From: Lachnospiraceae bacterium
GTDB taxonomy: Bacteria > Bacillota > Clostridia > Lachnospirales > Lachnospiraceae
DNA length: 44,923 bases
Assembly (NCBI GenBank): GCA_017465845.1
Contig: JAFTVH010000194.1
Span: forward strand, 1 to 44,923
Direction of reading: 5' to 3'
Below, piece after piece: positions 37,941 to 44,923 of this stretch (position 1 is the stretch's first letter; each line of letters opens with the position of its first letter). The translations under genes and the position numbers were made by a program. Under the pieces are notes generated by a model. It was not told the origin of the DNA, searched no databases, and was given only the letters and a program-made list of their open reading frames with translations.

Positions 37941-38123
37941 TTCAGCTCTCACCTGTTCCTTTCGTATTGACTTTATGAGCTCATTATATAATAGTTTTAT
38001 TTATTTAAAGTTAGGGAATTGTTTCCATAATATTAATTGGTGTTTTTACCATTAACCTATATAAAGTATCATTATCCGTTCTTTTTTCATATTATACTTG
38101 TAAAGTAATTTCAGGAAAAATTC

Positions 38124-38696
38124 ATGACAAAACGATGTGTTCCATTAGAACCTGCCGCAGAGATCGTCTGCAATCAAAGTGCCGTTCCACCCTTGATTTT
38201 TCAACTTCCCCCAAAGCAGGGCAGGGAAAAATTAGAAGAGGCCCAAACCACTCCTGTATATAAATATCCGGCTGTCATTCACGCTGAGAATATTAACACC
38301 GGGATATGGGGAAAAATCCCCGTATATTTTGTTTTACCGCAGGAAGAAACCAGAAATGTGATATTTTACATCCATGGCGGAGGTTGGGTCTTTGGAAGCT
38401 TTTATACTCATGAAAAGCTAATCAGGGAACTTTCTGCAAGAACAAATTCCCTAGTGGTTTTCCCCGAGTATACCCGCTCGCCGGAAGCAAAATATCCCAC
38501 TGCCATAGAGCAGTGCTATTTTGTGCTCTCGCACCTTTGGGATTTGGATCAGACAAACGCCTGCCGTGCTGCTATGGATGCGTCTGTTTTCTGGATTAAT
38601 CGAAAAAATACTCCCGGGAAACCATACAGTTTTCCCGGCGCTCTTGCATATGCTGTCAGGAAAACATCGCTTAATGTTGTTAATTCCCCAAAGTGA
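38124..38696 (+). pseudogene. HSL-type esterase with internal deletion
   Basis: The first ~145 residues match hormone-sensitive-lipase-type alpha/beta hydrolases: oxyanion motif HGGGWVFGSFYTH and 'PEYTRSPEAKYPTAIEQCY'. After 'LSHLWDL' the sequence jumps to 'DQTNACRAAMDASVFWINRK', which looks like the C-terminal helix of this family. The nucleophile GDSxGG and the catalytic Asp and His are missing, so the product cannot be an active esterase. The tail after NRKN is run-off sequence. ATG 38124 has AGGA 8 nt upstream. The frame is preserved across the deletion. Confidence 0.65.
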
Positions 38697-38697
38697 T

Positions 38698-38720
38698 GGC
38701 GCCGCAATTTAAGCGACGCC
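38698..38720 (+). terminator. Intrinsic terminator of the esterase remnant
   Basis: GGCGCCGC (38698-38705) pairs with GCGACGCC (38713-38720), eight positions with one mismatch and a 7-nt loop, followed by TTTGTCATTTTT. It begins one base after the stop codon. Confidence 0.6.
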
Positions 38721-38825
38721 TTTGTCATTTTTGCTAACCAGCCTGTTCAGTATCCCGATATAACAGAGCCAAGAAGAAACAGCTCCTTTCCAATGGATGA
38801 TGCCTATATCTCTCTTAATCACTCA

Positions 38826-40049
38826 TTACATGATATAATTGTCAGCATTAATCATTTTTGTAGAAAGCAAATCTTTAATACCATCCATCATTCCGGGAAG
38901 TTCTTCCCCTTCGGATTCTCCTATTTTTGCAACATTCTGCGCAACGGCAGCAATGGCACTTTCCTGTTCTTCGTTACAAGCAACCTTCGCACAATTTTCA
39001 ATCATAAGTCTATCCAGAATCAGTTCGGGGGTTACATCTGATGCAATCTTTATAGTAGCGGCATTTCTTACAAGCACTTTATTAGGAGAACCTTCAAGCA
39101 ATGCTTTATCAACTCTGGCACTTGGTTTGTTTTCAATTATTCTGCCTTCCCACTTGAATTCAAGCTGACTATATTCTACATTTATTTTTTTGAAACATCC
39201 TTCCTGCTCTTTCTTCAGTACCACATTTCCTTTCACAACAATTTTTTCCACTGATTCTGCCAATGATTCCACATCGCAATCCTCAGGAACATTTAATTTC
39301 CCATACACATATATGTTACTTCCCTCTTTCTCCAGCAGCTGCTCATTTAAAACCGCGTCTCCGTAATGAAGTGTCATACCTGCAGGAATAACTACAAAAT
39401 CCACTTTTTCATCAAACAATTCTACACACGATTCTACCATTTCTTCAGGAACGATCAATTGCTTTGTAACAAACTGTACATTTTTCTGAACTAATTTTCC
39501 TAAATCCACTGCTTTGTCCTGAACGATTACCTTATTTTCCACATAATATTTCTTTCCTTCTTTTGCTCTCATAGGAAAGTATTTATCTACAATAAATGTA
39601 CTATCCAAAATAACACAATCATCCGGATACATAGAAACAGAACCATTCGCAGATAATTTAGTCAGATACCCTTCCAAACTTTTCGGGCATCTAACAGAAC
39701 CATTTACATGAATTTTTTCATATTTTGCCAAGGTATCTTCTGTGCCCGGATGAATGTTCAACGACCCATTTACAATTAACAAAGTATGTTCCTGAACAGC
39801 AGTAGTTCCGGTTATCTCATAAGAACCATTAATTGTTTTTAATTCCACATCAATATCATCTGCAATTTCTATGGTACAATCTTGATTAATTGTAACAGGA
39901 AGTCTGTTCAAAACACTTTTGCTCGCTGCACTGACTACAACAACATCTGCATTTATCATCATTTTCTCATATCCACTGTAATCCTCTTCATTAATCTTTC
40001 TGGTATCACAGACATCACAGTTTAATAAATAGTTTTTCTTGTTAAACAT
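38826..40049 (-). CDS. Soluble repeat protein paired with ECF sigma factor
   Basis: A 407-residue protein with no signal peptide or membrane segment. The N-terminus has a CDVCDTRK motif that could bind metal. The first half carries four spaced NGS turns (TINGSYEI, LIVNGSLNI, IHVNGSVRC, LSANGSVSM) separated by ~22-25 residues of alternating hydrophobics, suggesting a bactofilin-like beta-solenoid. Similar strands recur in the second half (YVYGKLNVP, KIVVKGNVVL). ATG 40049 has AGGAGG and overlaps the sigma-factor stop by 8 bp, so the two are translationally coupled. It may act as a cytoplasmic anti-sigma or scaffold protein; that is inference from the pairing. Confidence 0.7.
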   Translation of the reverse strand: MFNKKNYLLNCDVCDTRKINEEDYSGYEKMMINADVVVVSAASKSVLNRLPVTINQDCTIEIADDIDVELKTINGSYEITGTTAVQEHTLLIVNGSLNIHPGTEDTLAKYEKIHVNGSVRCPKSLEGYLTKLSANGSVSMYPDDCVILDSTFIVDKYFPMRAKEGKKYYVENKVIVQDKAVDLGKLVQKNVQFVTKQLIVPEEMVESCVELFDEKVDFVVIPAGMTLHYGDAVLNEQLLEKEGSNIYVYGKLNVPEDCDVESLAESVEKIVVKGNVVLKKEQEGCFKKINVEYSQLEFKWEGRIIENKPSARVDKALLEGSPNKVLVRNAATIKIASDVTPELILDRLMIENCAKVACNEEQESAIAAVAQNVAKIGESEGEELPGMMDGIKDLLSTKMINADNYIM

Positions 40050-40512
40050 ACTTTTTCCCTCCTAAAGACTCTTTTAAATGTTGACGGGCAGAAGAAAGTT
40101 TAAATCGAATCGTTCCCGGTGGCAGGGATAACATTTCTCCAATTTGTTTAGAATTGTACCCCTCTAAATAGCGTAAAGAGAAGATTAGCCCTTCCATATC
40201 CGGCAAAGCTTCCAGCAATTCCTCCCACTCCAAACGAGTGATTTCTTCAGAATATTTTTGGTGCTGCGGAAACTCTTCCACCATGGTCTCCTTACTCCTA
40301 TGCCGTACACGATCCACATACAAATTTTTGATAGTACGATATAACCACGAACGACACTGCTGATCCTGTAAATTTTTCAAAACATCTTCGTGAAGCATTG
40401 CGCGCAAGAATGCTTCTTGTACCAGTTCTTCTGCAGTATGCAGGTTTCCTGTCATGTTCTGAGACCAGCTTATCAACTCCTGGTGATATTTTTTATACAG
40501 TTCCTCTATCAT
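40042..40512 (-). CDS. ECF-type RNA polymerase sigma factor
   Basis: A 156-residue sigma-70 family protein. Region 2 is 'ELYKKYHQELISWSQNMTGN' to 'SWLYRTIKNLYVDRVRHR'; region 4 is 'RYLEGYNSKQIGEMLSLPPG' with the HTH 'TIRFKLSSARQHLKESL'. Start ATG 40512 is chosen, 9 nt from AAAGGA; an ATG three codons earlier touches the ribosome binding site. Upstream on the minus strand, CAACACTTTTGCGT (40559-40572) followed by a CTTATAAG stretch could be an autoregulated ECF promoter, but this is weak. It is coupled to the repeat protein gene; there is no membrane anti-sigma gene. Confidence 0.9.
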   Translation of the reverse strand: MIEELYKKYHQELISWSQNMTGNLHTAEELVQEAFLRAMLHEDVLKNLQDQQCRSWLYRTIKNLYVDRVRHRSKETMVEEFPQHQKYSEEITRLEWEELLEALPDMEGLIFSLRYLEGYNSKQIGEMLSLPPGTIRFKLSSARQHLKESLGGKKYV

Positions 40513-40679
40513 CCTTTGCATTCCTTTCTTTTGCCTTTCACTTATAAGACAGATGAACACGCAAAAGTGTTGAAATTTTTTTGATTTTTGTCACGATTTC
40601 GTTCTTTTATCTGAAACAAACGCTGATTACACAATCACTCTGTACACGCTGGATTCAATACACTCACATATTACAAATC

Positions 40680-40829
40680 CTATCGGATAACCACATATTT
40701 ATCGGCAATCTCTGGATTATCATAGAAAAAATCATCCGATTCATGATATTCTCCCCAGTTTGCGCAACCATCAAAATGCCCTGAAACCCTGATTCTAGCA
40801 GCATCTTTTGGGAATCCGAAAATTCCCAT
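40680..40829 (-). pseudogene. Fragment of an unknown protein, 49 codons
   Basis: The minus-strand frame from ATG 40829 to TAG 40680-40682 reads 'MGIFGFPKDAARIRVSGHFD', then 'GCANWGEYHESDDFFYDNPE' and ends IADKYVVIR. Its acidic, aromatic, balanced composition looks like the tail of a folded protein. There is no ribosome binding site and no promoter in the right place. Probably the 3' end of a gene lost when the toxin-antitoxin pair or a deletion arrived. The remaining bases from 40513 to 40679 and 40830 to 40846 hold nothing else clear. Confidence 0.35.
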
Positions 40830-40846
40830 TTCTCATGTGACTTTTC

Positions 40847-40915
40847 CACAAATCGTTCGATTTACAAATATTTTCGTTCGATTTCGTTGATATTATCGAA
40901 CGATTTGTGTATAAT
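40847..40915 (+). promoter_or_regulatory. Toxin-antitoxin promoter with three operator boxes
   Basis: -35 TTGATA (40887-40892), 17-nt spacer, -10 TATAAT (40910-40915). Three 9-bp boxes at an exact 21-bp step: TCGTTCGAT at 40853-40861 and 40874-40882, and its inverse ATCGAACGA at 40895-40903 inside the promoter spacer. The outer boxes extend to a perfect 15-bp inverted repeat, CACAAATCGTTCGAT (40847-40861) and its complement (40895-40909). The spacing places all boxes on one face of the helix, as expected for cooperative antitoxin/toxin autoregulation. Confidence 0.75.
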
Positions 40916-40948
40916 AATATTGTAAAGAAATCGAAAGGAGGCATTTCT

Positions 40949-41164
40949 ATGTCAATTACTGCTACTGAATTAAAAATGAATTTAGGCAAGTACTTGTTAA
41001 TGGCAGAAACGGAAGATATATACATCACCCGAAACGGCAAGATCATTGCTAAGTTGACCAATCCTAATCAGGACAGAGTAGATATGGCAAAATCCCTTTT
41101 TGGCATTATTCCTGCTGATATTACTTTAGATGAAGCCCGAAAAGAACGGCTTAGCCAGATATGA
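40949..41164 (+). CDS. Phd/YefM-type antitoxin
   Basis: A 71-residue antitoxin. The N-terminus 'MSITATELKMNLGKYLLMAE' and 'IYITRNGKIIAKLTNP' form the Phd/YefM DNA-binding fold. The C-terminal ~25 residues (DMAKSLFGIIPADITLDEARKERL) are the toxin-neutralising arm. ATG 40949 has AAAGGAGG ~8 nt upstream; a longer frame from 40907 starts inside the promoter and is rejected. The stop overlaps the toxin start by ATGA. It probably binds the three boxes in front of it. Confidence 0.9.
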   Translation: MSITATELKMNLGKYLLMAETEDIYITRNGKIIAKLTNPNQDRVDMAKSLFGIIPADITLDEARKERLSQI

Positions 41165-41586
41165 GAGCTTTAATAGATACCTGCATTATCATAGATGCAC
41201 TTCAAAACAGAGAACCGTTTGCCGAAGATGCAAAAGCTTTGTTTTTGGCGGTTGCTAACCGACACTGTAGCGGATTTGTCACTGCTAAATCAATTACGGA
41301 TATATACTATTTGCTCCATCGATATACACATAGTGATAAAGATACCAAGAATATTTTAAACACACTTTTCCGTTTATTCGACATTCTGGATACTACAGGT
41401 GTAAATTGTCGAAAAGCGGTATCTGCCGGCATAGCTGATTATGAAGATGCCATAATGATTGAAACAGCGATCCGGTCTGGCATGGATTGTATCGTTACAA
41501 GAAATCTAAAAGATTACTCAAATGCTTCCATCCCAGTATATCATCCAGCAGATTTTATAAAATCGCTCGAAACTATCGATGAATAG
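41161..41586 (+). CDS. PIN-domain toxin (VapC-type ribonuclease)
   Basis: A 141-residue PIN-domain protein, predicted Mg2+-dependent ribonuclease neutralised by the upstream antitoxin. Acidic residues of the site are visible: LIDTCIIID (Asp6), a central Asp/Glu region (KSITDIYYL), ADYEDAIMIE, and VTRNLKDY near the end (Asp). The start overlaps the antitoxin stop (ATGA), giving translational coupling. The Phd-like antitoxin with a PIN toxin is a known combination. A weak hairpin followed by ATTTTTC at ~41600-41635 may be the terminator. The next 120 bp show nothing certain. Confidence 0.9.
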   Translation: MRALIDTCIIIDALQNREPFAEDAKALFLAVANRHCSGFVTAKSITDIYYLLHRYTHSDKDTKNILNTLFRLFDILDTTGVNCRKAVSAGIADYEDAIMIETAIRSGMDCIVTRNLKDYSNASIPVYHPADFIKSLETIDE

Positions 41587-41756
41587 TTTTCTCGAAATCT
41601 ATCGGCACTGCATTTTATGCTTGCCGGTATTTTTCATTTAGACAGCAGACAACTTATGCCGATGATTTAGAACTAATGGAATCCGTGTTAGATTAAAAAA
41701 TCCAGTGTTTATGCGGTCTACACGTTTCTACACGGATTTTTCAAAAAATTTTGTAG

Positions 41757-41795
41757 AAAAAAAACGGGGAAATGCTGATAAATTCAACATTTCCC
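41757..41795 (-). terminator. Intrinsic terminator downstream of tRNA-Thr fragment
   Basis: GGGAAATG (41767-41774) pairs with CATTTCCC (41788-41795) over a 13-nt loop. On the minus strand it is followed by CG and eight T (41757-41764). It lies 15 bp after the 3' end of the tRNA-Thr-like fragment, as a native tRNA terminator would, and may now end the PBECR4-like transcript. Confidence 0.75.
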
Positions 41796-41810
41796 ACATT
41801 TTAAACTTAC

Positions 41811-41830
41811 TGCTGGTGGCCGGACTTGAA
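41811..41830 (-). other. tRNA-Thr 3'-end fragment, probable attachment site
   Basis: The minus strand reads TTCAAGTCCGGCCACCAGCA. This is the T-loop (TTCAAGT), T-stem 3' strand (CCGGC), acceptor 3' strand (CACCAGC) and discriminator A of a tRNA whose acceptor would begin GCTGGTG, as tRNA-Thr does in many Clostridia. The upstream bases do not pair with the T-stem, so only the last 20 bases of a tRNA gene are present. Such short copies are what tyrosine integrases leave at one end of an inserted element. Confidence 0.6.
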
Positions 41831-41876
41831 TTATTCACACATTAAAAAATATTGATAAACAGGAGGTTTCAAGAGG

Positions 41877-42566
41877 TCAGTCGCTAATGTTATCACCCAT
41901 GTTATCACCTAACTTCTCCAAATCACATAGTTTCTTCAATTCATCCGGAAGATTCGCATAAAGTTCTGTAAACAACCCTGTTTTAATCTCCATCAAAATA
42001 TTTTTATATTTATAGTCCTGCATATGTTTTTGAAGGACAAAGATGATTTTATACTTCTCTGAAACAAATTCATCAATATTTCTTGGAATCAATGTAAGTG
42101 GGAAAGATGACTTACCTAATATCTTAAAACCTAAGGTAGCTTCATTTCCATAACCATATGAAAAGTCCACATATTGAGATATCTTATCTTTTAATCCTAC
42201 TTTCATATACTTTGCATCCTGAATACGAAACATAGCAGGACAACAGGAACTTTTTTCATTGATCGTTGTGCGGCTGTGATTTCGCGATGGCTGGCAATCT
42301 GATATCTCAATCCCTTTACCCATTCCGTTATTATATGCATCGCACGCTTCGTAAAATTCCTCTGCACTCATTGTTCTACTATCTATTCCGAGCAAATGCA
42401 TAAAATGCTTTTTTTCAAAATAGCACTGAAACCAGAAGTAATCTGGATTTTTCTTATTCTTCCCTGCAATCAAATAAGCATTTCCTATTAATTTTGCATA
42501 CTCTTCAGCCGCTTTATAAATTGTTTCCAACAATTTTTCATCTGAAAGCTTTGATTCTATTACCAT
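41877..42566 (-). CDS. PBECR4-like nuclease-domain protein
   Basis: A 229-residue protein with no signal peptide. 'FEKKHFMHLLGIDSRTMSAE' followed by EFYEAC matches my recollection of the PBECR4 (phage Barnase-EndoU-ColicinE5/D-RelE-like) domain; 'RIQDAKYMKVGLKDKISQYV' and 'GYGNEATLGFKI' would be the later strands. A central RNHSRTTIN is basic and could contact RNA. ATG 42566 has AGGAG 6 nt upstream. Directly upstream lies an independent structured transcript ending in a terminator, and downstream lies the tRNA-Thr fragment. It may be the toxin or effector of a small mobile defence or addiction module; that role is inference and the family call is from memory. Confidence 0.6.
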   Translation of the reverse strand: MVIESKLSDEKLLETIYKAAEEYAKLIGNAYLIAGKNKKNPDYFWFQCYFEKKHFMHLLGIDSRTMSAEEFYEACDAYNNGMGKGIEISDCQPSRNHSRTTINEKSSCCPAMFRIQDAKYMKVGLKDKISQYVDFSYGYGNEATLGFKILGKSSFPLTLIPRNIDEFVSEKYKIIFVLQKHMQDYKYKNILMEIKTGLFTELYANLPDELKKLCDLEKLGDNMGDNISD

Positions 42567-42581
42567 TTACTTCTCCTATGT

Positions 42582-42789
42582 AAAAAGGCCTCGCTCACGC
42601 AAGACCTCTACACTTACTGTTATATACTGGTTTATTTAGGTGCGTGCCACCCAATTGAAAGCCTTCCACTTTCACGCGAAATCAACTATTTCGTAAAGTG
42701 TGTGCATAGTTTTAACGTTTCCAGTTTAACGGCGATACGCTCCTTATATCGCGTGTCCATACAAGCATGGAGAAGATTCCTCTTCTGGC
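42582..42789 (-). ncRNA. Candidate structured RNA upstream of PBECR4-like gene
   Basis: About 205 nt between a promoter (42796-42824) and an intrinsic terminator (stem 42586-42594/42599-42607 with U5), with the PBECR4-like start 16 nt further on. Hairpins readable on the minus strand: AGAAGA-GGAA-TCTTCT with a GNRA loop; GCGATA/TATCGC around 9 nt; a two-step stem CACTTT-CGAAAT / ATTTCG-AAAGTG; and GGTG/CACC around GCACG. There is no good reading frame. It could be a regulatory leader with attenuation or a separate antitoxin-like RNA. It lacks the repeats of ToxI and does not match a T-box. Confidence 0.55.
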
Positions 42790-42795
42790 ACTTTT

Positions 42796-42824
42796 AGTAT
42801 ATCACGAATCCATACTAATTACAA
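42796..42824 (-). promoter_or_regulatory. Promoter of the structured RNA
   Basis: Minus strand: -35 TTGTAA (42819-42824), 17-nt spacer, -10 TATACT (42796-42801). Transcription would start near 42789. The stretch 42825-43078 beyond it is very AT-rich, with no gene or RNA feature that I can support. Confidence 0.6.
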
Positions 42825-43078
42825 TTGGTAATTTTTTATTTACGGTTATTTTTCTATTTGTTTTCACGCACTCTAATATCATTATATGTATTTTTACATA
42901 TAATGTATTACAATTCATCCATTTTTGTAATTTAGTTACATTATTCTCGCTTCATACAAGTATAAAATGCAGATCAGTAGGTTATGAAGATTACCGGACT
43001 GGCCAGGAATACGTACTATAATTACAAGTGCTGATATTGCTCTAACATCATATTAACGCTGTGGATATAACATATACT

Positions 43079-44104
43079 TTATTCTCCAATCTTGCCTAAA
43101 ATTTCTTTTAATTTTTCCGCCAACGATAAAGATATTGCAGCATGCCCTGCATTCGAAGGATGCAGTAAATCGCAAGTGAGTCCATAAACTCCGCCGCTCA
43201 AAGCTCTGCCGTCAATAAAGAAAAAGTTCTTATCCGTAAATTTTTCTGTCAGTCTTAGAAAACCTTTATCATATTCTTTGGTTCGAATATTTGCCAAATC
43301 GTCCTCCGGAAGCCCCCGGTAACCATTGTCAAATGGTGAAATCAGTACAACCGGCCTGCCGCCGGAAGCCTCCAGAACCTTTTGAAGCAGATATTCTGCC
43401 CGCGCCATGAACTCCTGACCGGTAAATATTCCCAACATATTGACACCCAGTTCCAATGTCATAATATCCCAGTCCCTGCGTGCTGCAAGATAATCTGCCA
43501 CTTCTTTTTCACAGAGGCAGGAACCTGCCAAACCTAAATTGCACACATCCAAACCTGTCATTTGTGCAGTACGGAACACATAGCTGGAAGTCACATCTGT
43601 TGCATTAGCACCCATCGTAATAGAAGAGCCGTAAACCAGCCACCGTTTTTTCGGCAGTAACGCCTGATCAGGTGCCTCTACCGCTGCACCAAATGTATTG
43701 ACTCCGTGAAAAATCACAATTGCTCCATCCATAACAATGCGCCACACGGAAAAATGAAAATTTCCCTGCGCCAGCATATCCGGTCTGACCTTATCCAGAC
43801 GTCCGCGCCCCTGTATCGAAAGATTCGTTTTTACGCCCGCCTTAAGTTCATGCACAGAATGCAGAAAATCTCCGCAAAAAACAAACACCTTACATTCCTT
43901 GTCCATTGCTTCCAACATAACAAAATATTCTCTTGCATTTGTTACAAAACGTATTTCCGATGCTGTCGCCTTTACTGCACGGATATTTCCCTTTTCTAAG
44001 CGATTACGCACATTTTGGGGATATCTGGCCATTACCAGTCCATCTCTGTCGTTCCACTGCTCCAACGCCGCAACGTTATGAAACATTAAATTATTATATA
44101 TCAT
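43079..44104 (-). CDS. SGNH/GDSL-family hydrolase
   Basis: A 341-residue cytoplasmic protein with an N-terminal beta-domain (~1-145) and a C-terminal SGNH hydrolase domain. Blocks seen: YGSSITMG (nucleophile Ser), LGLAGS (block II), ELGVNM (block III, Gly-x-Asn) and DLLHPSNAGH (block V, Asp-x-x-His). It belongs to a different SGNH branch from the gene at 303. The start ATG has no ribosome binding site at the usual distance; AGGAGGGG is ~17 nt upstream. The ATG overlaps the stop of a small ORF (ATGA), so translation is probably coupled. In an operon with the GH31 glycosidase, it likely removes acetyl groups from the same oligosaccharide. Confidence 0.88.
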   Translation of the reverse strand: MIYNNLMFHNVAALEQWNDRDGLVMARYPQNVRNRLEKGNIRAVKATASEIRFVTNAREYFVMLEAMDKECKVFVFCGDFLHSVHELKAGVKTNLSIQGRGRLDKVRPDMLAQGNFHFSVWRIVMDGAIVIFHGVNTFGAAVEAPDQALLPKKRWLVYGSSITMGANATDVTSSYVFRTAQMTGLDVCNLGLAGSCLCEKEVADYLAARRDWDIMTLELGVNMLGIFTGQEFMARAEYLLQKVLEASGGRPVVLISPFDNGYRGLPEDDLANIRTKEYDKGFLRLTEKFTDKNFFFIDGRALSGGVYGLTCDLLHPSNAGHAAISLSLAEKLKEILGKIGE

Positions 44105-44205
44105 ATTTTTGCCGTACGGCTCCCCTCCTTTTGCTGATGTTCCAGTGACTTTTCATATTTTCGTCGATCTTTTTCATAATACATTCTTTTTTGAACTTCC
44201 AGCAA
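44101..44205 (-). CDS. Small coupling ORF, 34 aa
   Basis: TTG 44205 to TGA 44101-44103, lying between the GH31 stop and the SGNH start. GGAGG is 8 nt before the TTG. The stop overlaps the SGNH ATG as ATGA. The peptide (LEVQKRMYYEKDRRKYEKSL and on) is strongly charged and helical, with no recognised family. It may be a translational-coupling leader peptide rather than a functional protein. Confidence 0.4.
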   Translation of the reverse strand: MLEVQKRMYYEKDRRKYEKSLEHQQKEGSRTAKI

Positions 44206-44219
44206 TCTTGCCACCTCCG

Positions 44220-44923
44220 TCAAAACTGTATTTTGCCGCGATATACTGTATTTGCGGCCACTTCCACTTGAGTTTCTGCAACAGTCAGTCCAATCAGGCG
44301 CACACAATATTTCCTTTTGCTACCTGTGTTATTTTCCAATAGCAATTCTGCACCATCTGATGTAAAGGTACAGGCAAACAGCTCTGTTACCGTATTGCTT
44401 TCGCTGCATTGTATCTTAGCTCCGCATCTATCCGGATAGAAATCAATATGTAAAATTTCCGGAATTTCTTCCGTCTGAAAGCTTTTGCCGTATTCACGAA
44501 CCAACGCGGAACCAAGTTTTACAAACATTGGAAGTCCTTTTACTTCTTTTAACGGTGCTTCGACCATAATGGTCTTTCTTCCCTGATGGCATACACCGGT
44601 GTGGAAATCCATCCATTCTCCCTCAGGCAAATACACTTCCCTGGCTTCGGCTCCCTGCTCTACTACCGGCGCACCCAGAAGTGCTTCGCCCAAATAAAAT
44701 TGATCTCCGATGTTATAGACCTTTTTATCGTCCATATGGTAGAAAATCAAAGGTCGAATCAAAGGAGCTCCTGTTCTATGTGCTTCTATTGCACAGGAAT
44801 ACAAGTAAGGTATCAGACTGTATCTAAATTCCAGACATTGACGATATAATTTCTGCGTGCTCTCCGGACAGTTCCATGGCAGTTTTGCAACTCCATGTCC
44901 ATTATGGATACGGGCAACCGGCA
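44220..44923 (-). CDS. Glycoside hydrolase family 31 C-terminal part (runs off window)
   Basis: The last ~234 residues of a GH31 enzyme (alpha-glucosidase/alpha-xylosidase type). The frame is open to the window edge: 'PVARIHNGHGVAKLPWNCPE', then 'LEFRYSLIPYLYSCAIEAHR', TGAPLIRPLIFYH, and 'DQFYLGEALLGAPVVEQGAE' with 'REVYLPEGEWMDFHTG'. These are the family's post-barrel motifs and proximal beta-sandwich. The catalytic Asp residues lie in the missing N-terminal part, so specificity cannot be judged. It is followed by the small coupling ORF and the SGNH hydrolase, in one operon. Confidence 0.85.
   Translation of the reverse strand, partial: PVARIHNGHGVAKLPWNCPESTQKLYRQCLEFRYSLIPYLYSCAIEAHRTGAPLIRPLIFYHMDDKKVYNIGDQFYLGEALLGAPVVEQGAEAREVYLPEGEWMDFHTGVCHQGRKTIMVEAPLKEVKGLPMFVKLGSALVREYGKSFQTEEIPEILHIDFYPDRCGAKIQCSESNTVTELFACTFTSDGAELLLENNTGSKRKYCVRLIGLTVAETQVEVAANTVYRGKIQF

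Follow-up and report, generated by a model that had tools for sequence, protein, structure and literature searches.

Type III toxin-antitoxin systems are built from one promoter, a repetitive and pseudoknotted antitoxin RNA, a Rho-independent terminator and an endoribonuclease gene, as outlined in PMC5086642, and the account of CptI and TenpI in PMC12373285 gives repeats of 45 and 50 nucleotides (nt) in 2.1 units. As a precedent, the same account describes an abiF RNA motif that is encoded before a toxin and reportedly neutralises it by direct binding; that toxin, AbiF, belongs to the Abi_2/AbiD/F proteins and is structurally linked to ancestors of Cas13. For the PBECR nuclease domains a helix-borne His and a C-terminal Thr or Ser have been described, with solo versions noted in phages (in the section on these domains of Iyer et al. 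2017, PMC5512222), and the pertinent part of PMC9403866 names only PBECR3. Our search of the literature outside subscription papers and preprints found no paper naming PBECR4, none linking the RNA family drum to a toxin, and no report of an RNA-PBECR4 pairing. Here we describe a locus in which a structured RNA precedes a PBECR4-family gene on the minus strand of a 44,923-nt stretch of DNA from a Lachnospiraceae bacterium (assembly GCA_017465845.1, contig JAFTVH010000194.1), the whole of which is called the window below. We put the probability at roughly three in four that this locus is a type III-like toxin-antitoxin (TA) module whose RNA neutralises a BECR-fold RNase.

Organization of the window locus

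The minus strand of the window presents, in order, a promoter, a folded RNA of about 205 nt, a terminator, a ribosome binding site (RBS) and the undamaged PBECR4 (PF18813) gene. The RNA gene lies upstream of this gene in the same orientation, under one promoter predicted by consensus match and comparison. This promoter (42796..42824) consists of a -35 element TTGTAA (42824-42819) and a -10 element TATACT (42801-42796) with a 17-nt spacer and an extended TG before the -10. By itself it was no better than chance, with 4 promoter-like sites in 1.6 kb versus 6.5 expected; the position of the -10 element was kept in relatives, as TATACT in loci L007 and L008 and as TATATT in L004 (L and G numbers are our own labels for loci and genomes). 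The gene of the putative RNA antitoxin (42582..42790), supported by its fold, its relatives and a covariance model, comprises a body (42790-42624) and the intrinsic terminator AGGTCTTGC-GTGA-GCGAGGCCT-TTTT (42582..42607). The terminator was caught by our fixed-rule scan and was absent from the list of a stock scanner, perhaps because its stem can be extended into the short U run. An AGGAG ribosome binding site (42573..42577) and an ATG start codon at 42566 follow, opening the intact gene (41877..42566) of a predicted endoribonuclease of 229 amino acids that matched the PF18813 profile at E 1.3e-15 and 58.7 bits (cut-off 27). A promoter of the form TTGTAA-17-TATACT, an intrinsic terminator and a PBECR4-like nuclease gene behind it had all been proposed in an earlier sequence-only reading of this stretch, and our comparison recovered all three.

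Recurrence ahead of PBECR4 genes

PF18813 was found in 29 of 391 genomes of the class and in 4 of 398 genomes of the phylum, two of those four having already been seen. Most of the PBECR4 loci that we read, which came from chromosomes, plasmids and phages of Clostridia and Bacilli, had a promoter, a structured RNA and a terminator upstream. Under the fixed rule, a terminator lay 8-90 nt before the start codon in 35 of 42 PBECR4 loci versus 6 of 47 control genes from the same loci, where the 42-locus set includes near-copies such as L028, L030, L031 and L043 and leaves outside L040, whose protein the profile had missed. Five of the seven misses (L021, L026, L027, L028 and L073) showed a hairpin with a longer loop by eye, L024 is 5'-truncated, and the start of L042 is misplaced. 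The rule also caught a terminator in nine of 11 further loci, with L078 a genuine miss and L075 carrying a misplaced start; nine of these 11 were gathered after the rule had been applied, while L040 and L074 were gathered before it and part of the L074 RNA had already been seen. A perfect TATAAT stood 170-320 nt upstream in 34 of the 51 PBECR4 loci with enough sequence, compared with 13.0 expected from base shuffles. Among 15 regions read around plasmid and phage relatives, the 14 that were annotated showed by eye no shared neighbour gene fit to be a protein antitoxin.

Fold and conservation of the window RNA

The RNA region (231 nt) folds at -64.6 kcal/mol (z -2.8), and only 2 of 200 shuffles folded as well. 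Its multi-branch minimum free energy (MFE) fold was not the conserved one and was rejected, since comparison favours a hairpin h1 at 42731-42716 together with pairing of its loop to 42630-42626. The conserved structure opens with three 5' hairpins (42732..42786), namely P1 with a GNRA loop, P2, and P3 with the near-invariant loop UAAGGAGCG, all three showing two-sided changes in relatives. These are followed by hairpin h1, or P4 (CGUU[AAACUGGA]AACG, 42716..42731), whose loop strand ACUGG (42725-42721) covaries with the 3' segment s3, CCAGU (42626..42630), its predicted pseudoknot partner. Hairpins P6, P7 and P8 occupy 42636..42693, P8 being an h3-like GGUG[GCACG]CACC followed by an A-rich linker. 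The RNA of this build, which we call the window kind, was found in six of the 42 loci (the window, L005, L007, L008, L009 and L011).

Within the chosen helices of the window kind, which leave out P8 of L004 and P2, P6 and P7 of L011 and take in the truncated copy L003 for P6-P8 only, 294 of 297 pairs were standard. Changes on both sides of a helix occurred in P1 (L007, L011), P2 (L007, L004), P3 (L005, L011), P4/h1 (L004, L005), P7 (L005, L008) and P8 (L005, L011), and P6 hardly varied. The GNRA tetraloop pointed out in the sequence-only reading is that of P1, and it was kept in 5 of 6 copies, reading GGAA in two (the window, L009) and GAAA in three (L007, L008, L005); L004 has one extra A. 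The loop UAAGGAGCG of the P3 hairpin (42752-42732), which resembles a Shine-Dalgarno sequence, was almost constant among window-kind RNAs and read CAAGGAGCG in L004. An MFE-like pairing CACUUU/AAAGUG was given up for GAAAG/CUUUC (P7) because only the latter stays in register and shows compensation in L005 and L008. For window-kind RNAs, an h3-s1 pairing of 3 base pairs (GCA/UGC) was too short for a claim, and in the window the s1 segment AACUA could pair with the P6 loop UAGUU, a pairing that L005 does not keep.

A DNA search of 397 genomes of the family with the window RNA gave matches in four: twice in its own genome, at 85% identity in G223, and weakly in G121 and G184. The G121 match (L005) was genuine; that in G184 (L006) spanned 29 nt only and was rejected, L006 having no such RNA. 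A protein search of species genomes led to L007, L008 and L009, all from Lachnospiraceae and each with the RNA and a terminator before its PBECR4 gene, the promoter being present in both of those whose contig extends far enough. A covariance model, R1, built from six window-kind copies and searched over 26 sources, matched its six sources, the truncated own-genome copy L003 and, at E 6e-4, the RNA of L011, which lies outside the model and whose protein is just 28% identical. Conservation of the stems and of the promoter-terminator unit upstream of homologous genes, which the sequence-only reading had set as a test of its proposal, was seen in the window-kind relatives, where the stems covary. 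Searches of phage and plasmid DNA with the window RNA gave no match, and among viral contigs a degenerate pattern of the RNA found none, while four candidate stretches for the protein failed confirmation.

Comparison of the window RNA with Rfam gave no match at the gathering score, and an E limit raised to 5 admitted just three hits (E 0.78 to 2), all far under that score. This agrees with the earlier statement that the RNA matches no riboswitch class known to that reader, and a riboswitch, a T-box or a known leader was dropped for this reason. The segment GGGUGGCA resembles the T-box motif, and this candidate was likewise rejected for want of an Rfam match.

RNA kinds and pseudoknot pairings

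Apart from the window kind, the 42 loci comprised 11 with an RNA of a repeat kind, 15 with drum at or above the Rfam cut-off, three with drum under it, and seven outside these kinds, among which L024 is 5'-truncated and without an RNA and L036 carries, by eye, two tandem H-type pseudoknots. Four additional loci of the repeat kind (L074, L077, L079 and L083) lie beyond these 11. An RNA of the repeat kind consists of h1, two tandem units that each close with a hairpin (mostly with GUUG/GGUG stems) and an A-rich linker, and finally s3. The spacing of the units was 52-58 nt in 9 of 10 loci and, in L027, 52 or 65 nt depending on the element measured; a repeat finder reported two tandem units 50-55 nt apart in all five repeat-kind loci given to it. 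An Enterococcus faecium plasmid (L072, 1184-1293) carries two 55-nt tandem repeats, 93% alike, before its PBECR4 gene. For the window copy, the same finder detected no direct repeats of at least 16 nt in 42570-42800, so that the earlier remark on a lack of tandem repeats holds for the window and fails for the family.

Three loop-segment pairings, h1-s3, h2-s2 and h3-s1, are predicted in the repeat kind, of which h1-s3 and h3-s1 span the RNA. For h1-s3, the score of 15 RNAs with their own partners was 104.5, versus 67.5 +- 4.3 with shuffled partners, and none of 20,000 shuffles was as good (8.6 standard deviations, sd). The 15 were five of the window kind (the window, L007, L004, L005 and L011) and ten of the repeat kind; L008 and L009 were left out as near-copies and L003 for want of h1, and L028, a near-copy of L027, was left out here and in the tests of the other two pairings. 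For h2-s2 and h3-s1, 1 and 9 of 20,000 shuffles, respectively, were as good among the ten repeat-kind RNAs, all ten of which had both pairings (4-5 and 4 base pairs). The alternatives h2-s1 (42) and h3-s2 (35) scored under h2-s2 (54) and h3-s1 (51). All three pairings, of 3-7 base pairs, were also found in each of the four further repeat-kind loci, which were chosen by look and in two of which h2-s2 has only 3 base pairs; L080, L081 and L082 were outside the pairing test. The shuffle counts are inflated by the kinship of the sequences and by choice by eye, and their weight rests on the many different partner sequences. Judged by the covariation of the h1 loop with s3, the window RNA is pseudoknotted.

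Association with the drum RNA

The abiF and drum RNAs reportedly both come from one 2017 survey, and to our knowledge no function has been reported for drum (RF02958). It stood at or above the Rfam cut-off before 15 of the 42 PBECR4 genes, with L039 exactly at the cut-off, and under it before three more. The 391 class genomes held 23 drum places in 18 genomes, of which 12 were directly before a PBECR4 gene, two before apparent truncated remnants of one (L054 by profile, L055 by eye), eight without a PBECR4 gene downstream (four of them copies in genome G630) and one at a contig end. The four near-identical copies in G630 and a similar one in G412 (L060 and L062-L065), all without a PBECR4 gene, are each preceded by the same end portion of an apparently coding sequence. 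From these genomic positions, drum is linked to PBECR4, though not exclusively. The window RNA itself is not drum, as it gave no match to the drum covariance model at the cut-off of 43 bits. PMC7657543 also mentions drum.

The PBECR4 protein

In the window protein, H57 and T158 sit at the places expected of a BECR active site. The histidine was present in 27 of 28 aligned rows, the remaining row having a gap, and position 158 held T in 17, S in 10 and I in one. All 28 members matched the PBECR4 model of Pfam and none a ToxN model, one of them with an additional weak, unrelated family. PADLOC gave no matches for five PBECR4 proteins, NCBIfam nothing relevant for four, and a sequence search of PDB with the family profile three chance-level matches (best E 0.55). 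In Foldseek comparisons with PDB neither of two models matched at E < 0.001, and a MazF- or ToxN-like chain was not noticed in the VIA-align lists, where such an absence proves nothing.

Genomic setting, mobility and solo copies

A 20-nt duplicate of the 3' terminus of the same genome's tRNA-Leu(taa) lies 46 nt behind the PBECR4 gene (41811..41830, minus strand) and is likely the remnant of an attachment site. A second window-kind RNA in this genome, on contig C25 (L003, 1207-2333), is 5'-truncated and has lost the promoter, P1-P3 and h1. It lies downstream of a tRNA-Leu and is followed by a nucleotidyltransferase/HEPN pair, and a stretch behind the window PBECR4 gene recurs on C25 (the 3' stretch of L003). 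By sequence, the two arrangements look as if cargo had been swapped between common ends. In G223, L004 (1516-1730) holds a full-length orphan RNA of the window kind with its own terminator-like hairpin, and the PBECR4 gene is absent from the stretch read.

With three tblastn queries, PBECR4 relatives came up in overlapping sets of 21, 80 and 96 plasmid records, mostly from Enterococcus; matching phage records numbered 0, 2 and 14. Of the 96 matched plasmid records, 76 carried a gene with at least 99% identity to the PBECR4 gene of L072. In three of six phage regions read, from phages of lactic acid bacteria, the PBECR4 gene came directly behind the endolysin gene, a usual site of lysogenic-conversion genes. 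In Lactococcus phage phiLC3 (L082, 1163-1743), the annotated orf87 (1480-1743) spans the later part of the match only, and the tblastn alignment of residues 1-169 of the query begins at 1201, with a structured stretch and a terminator before it. Of the two readings offered earlier from the sequence alone, an attenuated leader and a small mobile RNA-antitoxin/toxin module, the second is supported in part, by relatives on plasmids and phages that have repeat-type pseudoknotted RNAs in a type III layout and by the tRNA-Leu remnant.

A second TA-like pair adjoins the locus (40907-41586, plus strand), with a Phd/YefM-like antitoxin below the Pfam cut-off and a PIN_3 toxin, and ends about 225 base pairs before the tRNA remnant, so that 40.9-42.8 kb of the window may be a small TA island. 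A retron or other RNA linked to a reverse transcriptase was discarded, as no such gene was noticed among the open reading frames of 38000-44923.

Proposed mechanism and rival explanations

Our observations are a common layout, its recurrence before one gene family, covarying pseudoknots, tandem-repeat relatives and predicted active-site residues. We infer RNA-protein binding, neutralisation, toxicity, expression levels, trigger and benefit. In the scheme that we propose, the single promoter would drive the RNA and most transcripts would end at the terminator, giving an excess of RNA, while a minority would read through into the PBECR4 nuclease. The RNA would fold to a compact body, pseudoknotted through the h1 loop and s3, and would bind and block the nuclease; trimming of the RNA by this enzyme is a further possibility. 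Were the supply of RNA halted, because the element is lost or because a phage shuts off host transcription, the nuclease, as the more stable partner, would be freed to cut RNA.

The main rival is a cis-acting leader, which would set readthrough of the terminator into the gene by sensing some signal, be it a ligand, a stalled ribosome or the nuclease. The terminator directly before the RBS would suit such a leader, as would the hardly changing, Shine-Dalgarno-like P3 loop and the slightly better complementarity to the terminator arm of own than of shuffled sequences (944 of 20,000 shuffles as good; 1.7 sd). The strong covarying pairing is, however, within the RNA body and not between body and terminator (8.6 versus 1.7 sd), the one gene family is served by several different-looking RNA kinds, including tandem repeats for which a leader has no need, and solo copies occur without a gene (L004 and 8 of 23 drum places), which together make a leader unlikely.

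Alternatively, the RNA could be a substrate or guide of the nuclease, or a co-travelling, trans-acting small RNA, with the pair serving as a defence effector whose cutting is directed or activated, and not blocked, by the RNA. RNAs are used for activation or function by CBASS, retrons and DRTs, according to the passage on them in PMC12373285, and the loops vary among copies as expected of specificity determinants; but each RNA contains partner strands that account for its variable loops, which leaves little free variable sequence, and no linked second protein was seen, so that we consider this quite improbable. We give even less credence to the idea that an old tRNA-Leu insertion has left the window with a decaying relic of such a module, neither made nor active now. 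Such decay would fit the tRNA 3' remnant alongside, the second own-genome copy without its 5' part including h1, and the damaged PBECR4 genes of relatives L008 and L031, whereas the window retains an undamaged promoter, RNA helices, terminator, RBS and reading frame, the last with H57 and T158.

Returning to the type III-like module, we think it fairly probable that PBECR4 nucleases in general are the toxins of a large Bacillota superfamily with RNA antitoxins, independent of ToxN and AbiF and with interchangeable antitoxin architectures, namely tandem nested-pseudoknot repeats, drum, and the single-copy RNA of the window. The orphan drum RNA would then be one such antitoxin, and solo copies may protect against the toxin on incoming elements. 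The pairing of RNA and PBECR4 in many bacteria, plasmids and phages suggests a little-recognised RNA-neutralised toxin system. If this is true, another protein lineage joins the RNA-neutralised toxins, drum gains a testable function, and it is explained why genes for a 'PBECR4 domain-containing protein' keep turning up in lactococcal phages and on plasmids of Enterococcus and lactobacilli. The natural pseudoknot variants are also offered for study of how one protein family might accept differently built RNA inhibitors.

Comparison with known systems

Drum occupies the position of the window RNA in other PBECR4 loci and has, by eye, a similar 3' end (an AAACC strand, an A-rich run and the terminator), but the window RNA scores no drum match, and Rfam classes drum as a small RNA gene and not as an antitoxin. 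With the PBECR domains of polyvalent phage proteins the window protein shares a nuclease domain with His and Thr/Ser, whereas those domains are treated as phage effectors, with no linked RNA mentioned in the relevant part of PMC5512222. The AbiF system and the RCd22 RNA of Clostridioides difficile likewise place a structured RNA before a (putative) toxin gene, although the protein family (Abi_2/AbiD/F) and the RNA motif differ from those of the window. Of the sequence features of type III systems, the window has the layout, the terminator and the predicted pseudoknot and is without the tandem repeats. In addition, h1-s3 and h3-s1 of the repeat kind span the RNA, unlike in type III systems, and the toxin candidate, PBECR4, falls outside ToxN, AbiQ, CptN and TenpN by sequence. 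We call the module type III-like, rather than a member, because tandem repeats are missing from the window RNA and the protein belongs to a different family. The repeat-kind relatives, as in ToxIN, CptIN and TenpIN (AbiQ), have a pseudoknotted tandem-repeat RNA, then a terminator, then a predicted endoribonuclease gene, and their repeat length is close to that of CptI and TenpI (45 and 50 nt).
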